This document shows, in pieces, positions 13,891-34,540 of a stretch of 64,000 nt of DNA. This DNA is from Caulobacter vibrioides (GTDB taxonomy: Bacteria; Pseudomonadota; Alphaproteobacteria; Caulobacterales; Caulobacteraceae), in the NCBI GenBank assembly GCA_001449105.1, contig LNIY01000150.1:1-64000 (forward strand), in the 5' to 3' direction. How positions within the stretch are numbered: the stretch's first letter is position 1; the number at the start of each line of letters is the position of its first letter. The notes beneath the pieces are model-generated. The model did no database searches and was not told the origin of the DNA. It saw nothing but the letters and a program-made list of their open reading frames with translations. The position numbers and the translations under genes were made by a program.

Positions 13891-15321
13891 TCAGGCCTCG
13901 GCCGCCTCGCCGCTGCGGGCCGGCAAGGCGAGGGTCACGCGAAGGCCGCCGATCGGCGCCCGCCCCAGGGTCAGGGCGCCGTCGTGCAACTCGGCCAGCT
14001 CCAGCGCGATCGGCAGGCCGAAGCCGTGTCCGGAGCCGCGCTCGTCCAGCCGACTGCCCGGCACCAGGGCGGCGGCGGCGGCCTCGTCGTTCAGGCCGGG
14101 ACCGTCGTCGTCGATGTCGAGCACCACGCGCGCGCCTTCTCGCCGACCCGTGACCCGCACGGTGCGCTCGGCGAACTTCCAGGCGTTGTCGAGCAGGTTG
14201 CCGGTCATCTCGTCGAAGTCCTGCGGATCGCAGGCGACATAGAGGTCGTCGGCCACGTCGAGCTCGGCGCGCACGCCGGCGGCGGCGTGGATGCGCGACA
14301 GTGCCGCGACCAGGTCTTCGAGGCGCGACCGGACCGGCAGGGCCGGACGGCCGGGCGCGCCGGGCGAGGCGGCGCGAGCGCGGCCCAGATGATGGCCGAT
14401 GGCCCCGTCGATCTGGGCGATCAGGCTGGCTAGGCTGCCGTCGGGATCGCGTCCCGGCTCGGCAAGGCGCACGGCCAGGGTGGCCAGGGGGGTCTTCAGG
14501 CCATGAGCCAGGTTGGAGACGTGGCTGCGGGCCTTGGCCAGGGCCTGTTCATTGTGGTCCAGCAGGGCGTTGAGCTCGGCCACGACCGGCTCCAGCTCGC
14601 GGGGCTGGCCGCCGTCGATGCGACGCTGCTCGCCGGCCCGCACGGCGGCCAGAGAGGCGCCGAGCTTGCGCAGCGGCCGCAGGCCCAGCTCCAGCTGGCC
14701 GATCATCGCCGCCAGCAGGCCCACGCCCAGCACGCCCAGCGACAGCAGCAGCGGCCGCAGGCCCTCGTCGCGCATGCGGTCTCGGATGTAGCGCGGCGCG
14801 CCGGCCGTGACCGTCACCGGCCCGCGGCTGGTGGTGATCGTCAGGGTACGGAAATAGAAGCTCTCGTTCCAGCCGCTGCGCGAGCGCCAGCGGCGGGATT
14901 CCTTCAGCGGCGCGGTCGGCGGCTTGTCGGGGCGCATCTCGCGCTGGGGCATGCGGTCCCGGTCGCGATCGCGCTCCGGACGGGGCCAGGGCGGCGGCCC
15001 CTCCCCCTGCCTCGGCTCCACCGCGGCCACGGTCTGCGAGCGCAGCACGCCCGCCGGTCCCTTGACGACCCAGGCCCAGCCGGCGCCGCGCCGGATGAAC
15101 GGACCGACCGACTGGATGCGGTCCTGGTCCAGCGAGCCGTCGGACTTCACCGCCCGGGCCAGCACCGATATCTGGGATTCCAGGCTGGCGTCGACGTTGC
15201 GACGGACGAACTGGTCCAGCGTCGGGCGGATGGTCAGGGCGGCCAGCACCACCGCCACGACGGTGAACAGGACGCCGCTGAGCAGCAGCCGCGCGCGGAT
15301 GGAGTTCAGCGGACCGCTCAC
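13891..15321 (-). CDS. Sensor histidine kinase of an OmpR-type two-component system
   Basis: This 476-residue inner-membrane kinase begins at a GTG that overlaps the stop of the response regulator by four bases (GTGA). One membrane segment lies at about 10-32. A long periplasmic loop includes a Pro/Arg/Asp-rich stretch at about 100-130, and a second membrane segment lies near 190-210. A HAMP-like linker follows, then the phosphoacceptor motif NLAHGLKTPLA near 270-280. The ATPase domain shows the N box (GNLLDNAWKFA), the G1 box (DIDDDGPGL) and a G2 region (RGSGHGFGLPIA). The H box is of the PhoQ type. It should phosphorylate the regulator encoded just upstream. The signal is unknown. The divergent TonB receptor is the likely target. 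Confidence 0.92.
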   Translation of the reverse strand: MSGPLNSIRARLLLSGVLFTVVAVVLAALTIRPTLDQFVRRNVDASLESQISVLARAVKSDGSLDQDRIQSVGPFIRRGAGWAWVVKGPAGVLRSQTVAAVEPRQGEGPPPWPRPERDRDRDRMPQREMRPDKPPTAPLKESRRWRSRSGWNESFYFRTLTITTSRGPVTVTAGAPRYIRDRMRDEGLRPLLLSLGVLGVGLLAAMIGQLELGLRPLRKLGASLAAVRAGEQRRIDGGQPRELEPVVAELNALLDHNEQALAKARSHVSNLAHGLKTPLATLAVRLAEPGRDPDGSLASLIAQIDGAIGHHLGRARAASPGAPGRPALPVRSRLEDLVAALSRIHAAAGVRAELDVADDLYVACDPQDFDEMTGNLLDNAWKFAERTVRVTGRREGARVVLDIDDDGPGLNDEAAAAALVPGSRLDERGSGHGFGLPIALELAELHDGALTLGRAPIGGLRVTLALPARSGEAAEA

Positions 15322-29441: not shown

Positions 29442-29747
29442 CTACAAACCGCTCAACAGGCCAGGTAGATCGCGAGCGCCATGCAGGACCCGGACGATCA
29501 GCGGCGGCCGCCGGTCGGCGTTGTAGACCAGCAGATAAGGAAAGCCGCGAACCACCAGGAAACGATGCGGCGCGGCGGCTATCTCCTGGCGCTCGCCCCC
29601 GCAGTTCGGTTGCTCGAAGATGAGCCTGGCCGCATCCAGTACGGCGCGACGAAATCCCGTCGCGGCCGAAGGGCGGTCTGCGCGGATCCAGGCCTCGGCC
29701 TCGACAAGGTCCAGGCGGGCCAGGGGCGAAAAGGCCGCTTGGCTCAA
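29442..29747 (-). CDS. parE: ParE/RelE-superfamily toxin
   Basis: This 101-residue protein has the type II ParE-like toxin pattern: FSPLARLDLVEAEAWI at the start, RRAVLDAARLIFEQPNCGGER in the middle, and RFLVVRGFPYLLVYNADR followed by IVRVLHGARD. ParE toxins poison DNA gyrase, while RelE relatives cut mRNA on ribosomes. The ending VLHGARD is ParE-like. Its start overlaps the antitoxin stop by four bases. Confidence 0.87.
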   Translation of the reverse strand: MSQAAFSPLARLDLVEAEAWIRADRPSAATGFRRAVLDAARLIFEQPNCGGERQEIAAAPHRFLVVRGFPYLLVYNADRRPPLIVRVLHGARDLPGLLSGL

Positions 29748-29989
29748 GCGCCGGCGCGCTCCGCATCGATCTGCGCGAAAATCTCCTCGGCGGTGAACGT
29801 CCCTTCCCGGTCCGCTTGCGCCGTGGCCTCGACCAGCATGGCGTTGAACTCGACGCGCTGACGCTCGGCGTCTCGCATCAGACGCAGCGCCGAGCGCACC
29901 ACCTCATCGACGGTGCTGTAACGCCCCGCCTCGACGCAGTCGCGCGCGAACCGTTCGAGATCGTCGGTCAACTGGATACTGGTCGCCAT
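29744..29989 (-). CDS. parD: ParD-type antitoxin
   Basis: This 81-residue protein starts with a ribbon-helix-helix DNA-binding region (TSIQLTDDLERFARDCVEAG RYS, then TVDEVVRSALRLMRDAE) and ends in an acidic toxin-binding tail. It should neutralise the ParE-like protein encoded next to it and repress its own promoter. The two genes overlap by four bases. The pair sits between pyrE and a divergent NUDIX gene. Confidence 0.87.
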   Translation of the reverse strand: MATSIQLTDDLERFARDCVEAGRYSTVDEVVRSALRLMRDAERQRVEFNAMLVEATAQADREGTFTAEEIFAQIDAERAGA

Positions 29990-30059
29990 CGTCGGCCTCG
30001 CGCCAGGGGATCACCCGAAAGTGCGCCCTGAACCGCCAGGCATCAAGTACACAGCCGCC

Positions 30060-30470
30060 ATGAACGACTCCCCTCCCCGTCCCCGCGTCGGCTGCGGCGC
30101 GGCCATCATCGACGCCCAGGGCCGCATCCTGCTGGTCCAGCGCCGTCGCATGCCAGAGGCCGGCCATTGGGGCCAGCCGGGCGGCAAGCTCGACTGGGGC
30201 GAGCCTGGCCGGACCTGCGCCGAACGCGAGATCCTCGAGGAGTTGGGGATCAAGGTCGTCGCCGGCCCGGTGCTGGCGGTGACCGACATGATCACCGCCG
30301 ACAGCCACTGGCTGGCCGTCACCTACCGCGCCGACGGCTGCGAGGGCGAGCCCGTGATCCAGGAGCCGGAGGCCATCGCCGACTGGGGCTGGTTCGCGCT
30401 GGACGCCCTGCCCGCGCCCCTGACCCAGGCCACGCGGGATGCGGTGGCGGCCCTGCGCGGCGCGAACTGA
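30060..30470 (+). CDS. NUDIX hydrolase
   Basis: This 136-residue enzyme hydrolyses a nucleoside-diphosphate-linked substrate. The NUDIX box GGKLDWGEPGRTCAEREI-LEELG spans about residues 39-61 and keeps the metal-binding REx2EE. The ATG at 30060 comes after a short leader, divergent from parDE. The layout resembles ADP-ribose or dNTP pyrophosphatases, but the substrate cannot be assigned. Confidence 0.9.
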   Translation: MNDSPPRPRVGCGAAIIDAQGRILLVQRRRMPEAGHWGQPGGKLDWGEPGRTCAEREILEELGIKVVAGPVLAVTDMITADSHWLAVTYRADGCEGEPVIQEPEAIADWGWFALDALPAPLTQATRDAVAALRGAN

Positions 30471-30488
30471 ACTTTTTTCGGCAGGCCG

Positions 30489-30515
30489 CGTCACATGCGC
30501 GACCCTGACCTCGTC
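30489..30515 (+). promoter_or_regulatory. ECF41-type promoter
   Basis: CGTCACA (30489-30495) and CGTC (30512-30515) are separated by exactly 16 bases. The published ECF41 sigma-factor promoter is TGTCACA, 16 bases, CGTC, so only one position differs. It lies 33 bases before the start of an AhpD/carboxymuconolactone-decarboxylase gene, the class of gene known to be controlled by ECF41. Confidence 0.7.
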
Positions 30516-30548
30516 ATGACGGCGCAACCCTCTCAAAGGAGACCCGCC

Positions 30549-31001
30549 ATGACCGCCAAGCTCGATCCCTTCGCCGCCGCTCCCGCCGTGATGAAGTCGT
30601 GGTTCACCGCCTCGACCGTGATCGCCGCCAGCCTGGAGCCGAGCCTGATCGAACTGGTCAAGATCCGCGCCTCGCAGATCAACGCCTGCGCCAACTGTAT
30701 CAACATGCACACGGTGGAAGCCCGCGCCCAGGGCGAGACCGAACAGCGCATCTACCTGCTGTCGGCCTGGCGCGAGGCGCCCTGCTACACGCCCCGCGAA
30801 CGCGCCGCCCTGGCCTGGACGGAAGCCCTGACCCGCCTGTCGGAAGGCCACACGCAGGAAGCCGCCCACGCCGATCTGGCGGCGCAGTTCACGCAGGAAG
30901 AACAGGTCAAGCTGACCCTGATGATCAACGTCATCAACGGCTGGAACCGTCTGGCCGTCGGCTTTGGCCTCTGGATCGAGCAGCCGGCGAAGGCGGCTTG
31001 A
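30549..31001 (+). CDS. Carboxymuconolactone decarboxylase/AhpD-like protein
   Basis: This 150-residue all-helical protein has the AhpD-like redox motif CANC in INACANCINMHTVEA (about residues 40-54) with the following histidine, and ends NVINGWNRLAVGFG. Members act as thiol peroxidase partners or small redox enzymes and form trimers or hexamers. An ideal ribosome site (AAAGGAG) precedes the ATG at 30549. Its promoter matches ECF41 sigma factors, which usually lie next to such genes. No sigma-factor gene is in this window. Confidence 0.9.
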   Translation: MTAKLDPFAAAPAVMKSWFTASTVIAASLEPSLIELVKIRASQINACANCINMHTVEARAQGETEQRIYLLSAWREAPCYTPRERAALAWTEALTRLSEGHTQEAAHADLAAQFTQEEQVKLTLMINVINGWNRLAVGFGLWIEQPAKAA

Positions 31002-33742: not shown

Positions 33743-33920
33743 GAATTCCTCGGGCTGACCGTAAGGTCTCTCAAAATAGGGCTCCGTGCGGCGTCACGCA
33801 ACGCCGCTTCGGCTGTAACCCAGCTTTCGCGAGGCGGCGTGTATGCCTTCTCGCTGGAGCAAAGTCCAGCCGGAACAAGGGAAAGGCGCCGCGCCCTTCC
33901 CATCTTCTCGCCTCCCCTCG

Positions 33921-34018
33921 GTAAAATACCCGCGAAAGCGGGGACGCAGGAGTTTTATCCTTGAGCGCCCTGGGTTGCAGAAAAAGCCTAGGTCCACGCT
34001 TTCGCGGGGATTTTACGG
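33921..34018. repeat. 98-bp dispersed palindromic repeat (family B), copy 2
   Basis: This copy has the same length and nearly the same sequence as 178-275. It starts GTAAAATACCCGCGAAAGCG and ends GCTTTCGCGGGGATTTTACG-G. Its last six bases lie inside the end of folK and supply the folK TAA stop codon. The stretch 33743-33920 between rpoZ and the repeat shows no gene. Confidence 0.8.
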
Positions 34019-34540
34019 ATGGGGTTGCGGCCTGGCGTCCGCCCCCACGCTCGCCTTCGCGGCGAGATCGCCAGCGCGCGCGCCCAGCAGCGGATGGACC
34101 CAGCCCGGCGCAATCTCCGCCAGCGGCCCCATCACGAACAGGCGCTCGTGGGCGCGCGGATGCGGCAGGACGAGGTTGCCGTCCGTCACCGTCCGACCGT
34201 GGGCGATCAGGTCGAGATCCAGCGTACGCGCGGCGTTTCGCTCGGCGCGGGCGCGGCCGAACTCGGCCTCGATGCGGTGCAGGGCCTCCAGGGCCTCGGC
34301 CGGCGACAGGGCCGTCTCCACCAGCACGACGCCGTTCAGATAGGCCGGGCCGGCCGGATCGGGCCAGGCCGCCGAGGTCCACCAGCCCGAGCGGGCGACC
34401 ACCGCCATGCCCTCGCCGGCCAGCGCCGACACGGCCGCATCCAACAGAGCCTCGCGACTCGTGTAGGCTCCCGGCAGATTACAGCCGAGGGCGACGACCA
34501 CGGCCGCATCCAGACCATTTCGATCAAGCCGTTCTTTCAA
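34013..34540 (-). CDS. folK: HPPK (6-hydroxymethyl-dihydropterin pyrophosphokinase)
   Basis: FolK transfers pyrophosphate from ATP to 6-hydroxymethyl-dihydropterin in folate synthesis. The signature RTLDLDLIAHG, with the metal-binding aspartates, lies near 108-118, followed by LVLPHPRAHERLFVMGPLAEIAP. The N-terminus ALGCNLPGAYTSREALL is a variant of the usual GSNLGD. A TTG at 34540 gives 175 residues, and a GTG at 34501 is an alternative 13 codons later. Neither has a good ribosome site. The gene is divergent from the NYN gene with only 12 bases between starts, which favours the later start. The stop codon comes from a 98-bp repeat. Confidence 0.88.
   Translation of the reverse strand: MKERLDRNGLDAAVVVALGCNLPGAYTSREALLDAAVSALAGEGMAVVARSGWWTSAAWPDPAGPAYLNGVVLVETALSPAEALEALHRIEAEFGRARAERNAARTLDLDLIAHGRTVTDGNLVLPHPRAHERLFVMGPLAEIAPGWVHPLLGARAGDLAAKASVGADARPQPHP

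Follow-up and report, generated by a model that had tools for sequence, protein, structure and literature searches.

ECF41 sigma factors form a widespread group, for which the promoter TGTCACA-n16-CGTC has been described and for which COE genes (i.e., CMD, oxidoreductase and epimerase genes, CMD standing for carboxymuconolactone decarboxylase) are given as the only detected targets in the portion of the study available to us (Wecke 2012, PMC3426412). The same text calls the WLPEP motif of the linker characteristic of ECF41, and a SnoaL-like extension of these proteins is described in reviews (PMC8999054, PMC8103513). About one third of ECF41 genes have no neighbouring target; indeed, in Table 4 of the former study, 126 of 373 ECF41 contexts (34%) are without an adjacent COE gene, and 38 of these 126 orphan genes (30%) are preceded by a promoter of their own (Wecke 2012, PMC3426412). 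In the passages at hand on S. meliloti RpoE9, a single target is reported, the adjacent CMD gene (PMC6180224). Regarding Caulobacter, a C. crescentus ECF41 factor figures among the working heterologous switches of a published toolbox (PMC10880074), and a literature search combining Caulobacter ECF sigma factors with carboxymuconolactone decarboxylase returned only the S. meliloti paper (PMC6180224).

Here, we analyzed a stretch of 64,000 nucleotides from Caulobacter vibrioides (the window), which belongs to contig C150 in a draft assembly of 5.32 Mb (G000). We consider it very probable that positions 30473-30515 are a promoter read by the single ECF41-type sigma factor of this genome, encoded on contig C115, which would drive its own gene as well as two CMD genes, hereafter CMD1 and CMD2. 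On the forward strand, the site comprises the -35 element CGTCACA (30489-30495), which has one mismatch to TGTCACA (6/7 bases), a 16-base spacer TGCGCGACCCTGACCT (30496-30511) ending in CT, and an exact -10 element CGTC (30512-30515), the spacing of 16 falling within the 16 +/- 1 of ECF41 promoters. The match to TGTCACA-N16-CGTC with one differing base and exact spacing, on which the original prediction was built, is hence confirmed at 30489-30515. Upstream, a T6 tract (30473-30478, forward strand; -16 to -11 from the -35 heptamer) is proposed as an UP-like third promoter element; a scan of 30300-30700 showed no terminator-like hairpin. The site sits in the gap between a NUDIX hydrolase gene (30021-30470, forward strand, stop codon at 30468-30470), which we regard as context outside the unit, and CMD1 (30549-31001, forward strand, 150 aa), the proposed ECF41 target; it begins at -60 from the CMD1 start and ends 33 bases 5' of it. 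The gene order in this neighbourhood is NUDIX-CMD1-RelA/SpoT. On the other side of the NUDIX gene, the window carries on the reverse strand, at 29442-29989, a ParE-type toxin gene (PF05016, 42.5 bits) overlapped by an 81-aa ORF (29744-29989) that looks antitoxin-like by eye, the two being a probable type II toxin-antitoxin pair. Downstream of CMD1, positions 33914-34023 form an imperfect inverted repeat, the 43-nt arms of which are 81% complementary and flank a 24-nt gap.

Transcription is predicted to start at the G at 30524 (forward strand), 9 bases past CGTC, which would leave a 5' UTR of about 25 nt. This prediction was modelled on the G start and the 22/23-nt leader of B. licheniformis and R. 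sphaeroides (Wecke 2012, PMC3426412) and on the S. meliloti SMb20029 promoter (PMC6180224), the last printed base of the latter being taken as its start. A ribosome-binding site, AAAGGAGA, can be read at 30535-30542 (forward strand). An alternative upstream ATG at 30495 would yield a 168-aa ORF; the start at 30549 is favoured because of this ribosome-binding site and because the CMD1 orthologue of one Caulobacter genome (G012) has no equivalent of the ATG at 30495. As foreseen from the sequence, the downstream gene is of the CMD class, with 75.2 bits to the Pfam CMD profile (PF02627, cut-off 23) and 55.1 bits to the AhpD core profile (TIGR00778, cut-off 27.8), and its translation contains CANCINMH, a CxxC...H motif.

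The absence of any ECF41 sigma gene from the genome had been named beforehand as an outcome that would refute the prediction; this was not what we observed, since a full-length gene with the WLPEP motif and likeness to SigJ was found on C115 (L001:1483-2340; TIGR02957 match at C115:9163-9993). It is the sole full-length TIGR02957 match in the genome; its score of 322.3 bits falls marginally short of the cut-off (323.25), and the next match scores 47.4. Its 285-aa product has sigma regions 2 (PF04542, 51.7 bits) and 4 (PF08281, 56.5 bits), both above cut-off, carries WLPEP in the linker (YVGEWLPEP in the translation) and aligns over residues 7-280 to M. tuberculosis SigJ (5xe7, E 2.4e-51). Moreover, it covers positions 2-280 of the 281 of TIGR02957 and hence possesses the C-terminal extension of some 100 aa that is SnoaL-like in ECF41 factors, the Pfam SnoaL_2 match itself being sub-threshold (20.5 vs a curated cut-off of 27). 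Among the named matches listed, the closest protein is that of Caulobacter endophyticus 774, with 94% identity; the CMD1 of this strain is 99% identical to that of the window. The sigma gene is preceded by TGTCACG-TCTGGCGCCTTGGTCT-CGTC, the end of which lies 27 bases 5' of the ATG.

The sigma gene and its proposed targets are scattered. None of the 21 sigma-profile matches of the genome (the ECF41 gene and 20 weaker sigma-like ones) lies on C150, in keeping with the claim that CMD1 has no neighbouring sigma gene. Conversely, no CMD gene adjoins the sigma gene on C115, the check for COE genes being confined to the CMD class: a profile search (E <= 0.001) identified two PF02627 genes in the genome, CMD1 on C150 and CMD2 on C148 (G000:C148:9273-9704). 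In this draft assembly the three genes thus occupy three contigs, and the sigma gene must lie at least 30 kb from CMD1 since it is on another contig. In a relative assembled as a single contig (G005, 5.66 Mb), the sigma gene is at 15,143, CMD2 at 2,209,116 and CMD1 at 3,139,738, all on this one contig, and they are hence truly unlinked there. The original prediction had also seen a departure from the usual paired layout; the lack of linkage holds, while an orphan ECF41 gene is in itself not unusual, considering the 126 orphans among 373 contexts (Wecke 2012, PMC3426412). A further correction is that CMD1 is not the lone candidate target, CMD2 and the sigma gene itself also carrying the promoter. 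Indeed, CMD2 is preceded by TGTCACG-CGGCCCTGTCCCGCCT-CGTC, ending 46 bases 5' of its ATG, and both PF02627 genes of the genome hence follow an ECF41-type promoter. The CMD1 site departs from the consensus at the first -35 base, the sigma-gene and CMD2 sites at the seventh. An internal TGA in the search result for CMD2 raised the idea of a selenocysteine gene, which was rejected, this TGA being the normal stop at the gene end. Both CMD proteins may act as thiol-dependent peroxidases.

The bare motif in the window proves nothing, since about one chance match is expected: with at most one mismatch, one match was observed vs 0.87 expected, and at least one was present in 58 of 100 shuffles. The same is true genome-wide, where no enrichment was detected with at most one mismatch (17 sites vs 13 for a reversed-pattern control). 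Because this enrichment test was negative, the argument rests on position and conservation. The chance of a site falling within 100 bp before the CMD1 start is about 7e-4, and three of the 17 genome-wide sites precede the ECF41 gene, CMD1 and CMD2 (Poisson P about 6e-11, 150-bp windows), the motif and the gene classes having been fixed in advance by the original prediction and by Wecke 2012 (PMC3426412). Of the remaining 14 near-matches, seven lie across ORFs with a coding score and seven do not; three of the latter (L291, L292, L299) have an ORF start at most 150 bases downstream and were left as candidates, not counted as targets. The looser pattern GTCACR-N16-CGTC has 72 matches in the genome. 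YGTCACR-N14-YTCGTC has seven, of which three are the sites preceding the ECF41 gene and the two CMD genes, the other four being inside coding ORFs (on C84, C89, C110 and C71, the last being L100); it was kept out of the P values because it was shaped on sites already seen. An upstream A/T tract further sets the three sites apart: at -16 to -11, A/T occupies 6/6, 6/6 and 5/6 positions, vs 2-4 of 6 in the other 14 near-matches (Fisher 0.0015). In L291, L292 and L299, A/T occupies 3, 2 and 4 of these 6 positions, with any T confined to the last four bases. The six-base A/T run of the three sites lies 10-11 bases before the first -35 base, its phase constant to within one base.

It is very unlikely, in our view, that the site is a genuine ECF promoter read by a different ECF sigma factor of overlapping specificity. 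The 20 weaker sigma-like matches would offer candidates, and some Caulobacter genomes possess a second ECF41-like subgroup with GGTCACA-N16-CGTC upstream. That subgroup was, however, not found in the present genome, where the ECF41 sigma search gave one match at E <= 1e-40, and TGTCACA is described as ECF41-specific in the text consulted (Wecke 2012, PMC3426412). In addition, only the ECF41-gene, CMD2 and CMD1 sites among the 17 near-matches have A/T at five or more of the six tract positions.

CMD1 is present in 9 of 75 Caulobacter genomes, the present one included, in every case as an intact gene. The GTCAC core, the 16-base spacing and CTCGTC are kept in 9/9 orthologues, with invariant columns at 5/7 positions of the -35 element, at none of the first 14 spacer positions and at 6/6 positions of CTCGTC; the -35 element is CGTCACG in G098, TGTCACG in G012 and CGTCACA in the remaining seven. 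An ECF41 gene exists in 9/9 genomes with CMD1 vs 54/75 overall, a weak association (P 0.04) given that these genomes are related and not independent. A promoter-like site stands upstream of the ECF41 gene in all nine. Seven of these sites have a single mismatch and a spacing of 16, among them that of G012, the first base of which lies 279 bases 5' of the start of the sigma gene; G010 has no mismatch and spacing 17, and G004 has two mismatches and CGCC as -10 element. In a tree of 83 CMD proteins, the CMD1 clade consists of the nine unlinked Caulobacter genes and three Sphingomonadales genes (support 99/99). The latter (L156, L159, L182), which are the closest CMD1 relatives outside Caulobacter among the matches listed, lie directly upstream of ECF41 genes, and each follows a perfect promoter whose distance from the matched start is -59 to -65, vs -60 for CMD1. 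More broadly, exact TGTCACA-N15-17-CGTC occurs near the sigma gene at 49 of the 80 named ECF41 loci listed (the loci numbering at least 80), and the CGTCACA variant is also found at two Bradyrhizobium ECF41 loci (L178, L191).

These data bear on two further explanations. That the site resembles an ECF41 promoter by accident within a GC-rich gap, CMD1 being served by another promoter or by transcripts running on from the NUDIX gene, strikes us as most improbable: one such match is expected in the window and the NUDIX gene, on the strand of CMD1, ends 78 bases before it, but all nine orthologues conserve the site while the spacer drifts, two partner sites exist in the genome (at the sigma gene and CMD2), the ECF41-linked relatives have perfect promoters and the T tract is in phase. 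A simple scan of 30300-30700 gave no sigma-70-like promoter, which speaks against another promoter. We can likewise attach hardly any likelihood to the idea that the site is left over from an operon which once joined CMD1 and ECF41, and that it has decayed and no longer works. Such decay would account for the C with which the -35 element begins, and would suit both the perfect TGTCACA at the three Sphingomonadales loci where CMD1 relatives adjoin ECF41 genes and the relic-like ECF41 sites of the genus (G022). Against it, the core, the spacing and the -10 element are invariant in nine orthologues despite the drifted spacer, the gene is intact in 9/9 and CGTCACA also occurs at Bradyrhizobium ECF41 loci.

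Regarding the CMD genes of the genus as a whole, 41 of the 83 entries left after removing proteins shorter than 110 aa and identical ones are from Caulobacter, and 33 of these 41 have a promoter site (31 with at most one mismatch and two, L075 and L278, with two mismatches). No sigma gene was found within 0.7 kb, in the stretch examined, for 26 of these 33; genes unlinked by this rule are not always distant, since CMD2 lies 11-13 kb from the ECF41 gene in, e.g., G002 and G036. Besides CMD1, ECF41-type sites precede unlinked CMD2-type and CMD3-type genes, and CMD-ECF41 pairs with such a site exist in G009, G013, G016 and G024. The eight other entries (L067-L070, L077-L080), which form one clade and come from genomes carrying ECF41, are without a promoter-like site and hence indicate that not every CMD gene has one; two-mismatch matches in four of them were left uncounted as they fall at the start codon or are otherwise misplaced. 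Most of these eight share a AGGAAACGACGATG start region, preceded by CGTCACA in four.

Sites of other classes were also encountered. Genes for a membrane-protein-like product of about 130 aa, weakly DUF4345-like (18.8 bits vs a cut-off of 26.5 for L242:524-916; similar loci are L236, L239, L243, L247 and L251-L254), adjoin ECF41 in Caulobacter, Phenylobacterium, Methylobacterium and Bradyrhizobium, whereas those of G009 and G013 are unlinked. Since 12 of 14 named loci among the matches listed have a site with no more than one mismatch, this family is an apparent non-COE target of ECF41; it was not found in the present genome by a search run without a positive control. The sigma factors of the second ECF41-like subgroup of Caulobacter (L053, L054, L055) reach about 209-238 TIGR02957 bits, and the -35 element of their GGTCACA-N16-CGTC is slightly different. 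Matches to the strict pattern (YGTCACR-N14-YTCGTC) are likewise present in Caulobacter genomes for which the search gave no ECF41 gene (e.g., G006, G008, G011, G029, G030, G063). Those of G008 and G063 are inside coding ORFs; that of G006 (L244) precedes a long ORF and has no A/T tract; that of G030 (L261) is close to the promoter of the G032 DUF4345-like gene (L247), retains the A/T tract and is relic-like; and that of G029 precedes an ORF whose start resembles the DUF4345-like family. The sites inspected in these genomes look like coding, chance-like or relic sequences. In G022 (L269:514-640), a CMD2-type promoter and the first CMD2 codons are followed by unrelated sequence, and CMD2 seems to have been lost there while the ECF41-type promoter remains.

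The A/T tract extends beyond the three sites of this genome. In 33 Caulobacter sites from 32 loci, chosen for lying before a CMD, ECF41 or DUF4345-like gene, A/T frequency is 0.64-0.79 at -15 to -11 vs 0.06-0.52 elsewhere upstream, with the exception of -1, where A is found in 0.88. The tract is not universal, with A/T at 5-6 of 6 positions in 21 of these 33 sites and at 0-4 in the other 12. Nine further T-first sites were left out of this profile and checked afterwards: seven have A/T at 1-3 of 6 positions, and two, the relic-like sites of G022 (L269) and G030 (L261), at five. Among the matches listed, 52 sites from named non-actinobacterial loci have A/T at 0.73-0.81 from -15 to -12, the next values being 0.69 (at -1) and 0.60; the tract is hence present in most, though not all, ECF41-type sites examined outside Actinobacteria, the four actinobacterial sites being too few to judge. 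Counted from a start placed about 9 bases past CGTC, the T6 tract before CMD1 would lie at about -51 to -46. UP elements at about -51 to -46 bind the alpha subunit. The A/T tract resembles such an element and is a probable third promoter element. We found no upstream A/T or UP-type element in the available text of Wecke 2012 (PMC3426412); PMC10880074, which has both ECF41 and UP element, mentions the latter only in general terms in the parts accessible to us, and PMC9023288 is likewise a text with both terms. While no description of the tract was found, we make no claim that it is absent from print. A phased A/T tract could help to tell functional sites from chance matches and provides an experimental opening on UP elements at an ECF promoter.

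The best reading of the sequence data is that of an autoregulated ECF41 sigma factor with a dispersed regulon that includes two AhpD-like genes. The C115 sigma factor would drive its own gene via TGTCACG-N16-CGTC and turn on CMD1 and CMD2 in trans. As in other ECF41 factors, no anti-sigma factor would be expected; instead, the SnoaL-like C-terminal domain might restrain the sigma factor until some signal acts, and positive feedback could then raise the sigma factor and the two CxxC-type proteins together. Regarding its origin, the gain of CMD1 with its promoter and its capture by the resident sigma factor fits the data, because CMD1 is in 9/75 genomes with Sphingomonadales sisters vs 54/75 for the sigma gene; loss in other lineages is the alternative. 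A broader proposal, to which we give about an even chance of being right, is that an A/T tract situated 11-16 bases 5' of the -35 element, and probably bound by the alpha-CTD, constitutes a third element of ECF41 promoters, which together with the -35 and -10 elements marks dispersed regulons. Caulobacter would have gained or moved CMD genes keeping this cassette. The resident autoregulated sigma factor would thereby have acquired control of genes to which it is not linked, and a circuit with one target gene would have grown into a redox regulon of several.

The usual picture of ECF41, one sigma factor and one neighbour gene, is here very probably replaced by a small scattered network. By its title, a paper on an A. 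brasilense ECF41 factor and lateral flagella reportedly offers a precedent for control beyond one COE gene. As one promoter type is common to the sole ECF41 gene and to both CMD genes that the genome search identified, these three constitute a small testable circuit, and this case suggests that the targets of orphan ECF41 genes can be sought away from the sigma gene.

Compared with R. sphaeroides RSP_0606, B. licheniformis ydfG (PMC3426412) and S. meliloti SMb20029-rpoE9 (PMC6180224), as documented in the available parts of these studies, the Caulobacter system has the same -10 element at 16 +/- 1 spacing, a -35 element that differs at one base from TGTCACA, a short leader (here predicted), a CMD target, a SnoaL-like extension and no anti-sigma gene nearby. 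In these three systems, however, the CMD gene adjoins the sigma gene and is the only target detected, whereas here it is not linked to the sigma gene, the site precedes two CMD genes, and a further copy stands before the sigma gene itself. The system also resembles the orphan ECF41 genes reported in the accessible text of PMC3426412 in having no adjacent COE gene (CMD in our case) and an ECF41 promoter before the sigma gene; unlike for these orphans, likely unlinked targets are identified here through conserved promoters. The Sphingomonadales loci share with CMD1 the same CMD clade and a near-equal promoter distance, the gene being linked to the sigma gene there and separate from it in Caulobacter. 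Overall, this appears to be a known kind of circuit, the novelty of which would reside in its dispersed, autoregulated and multi-target form.
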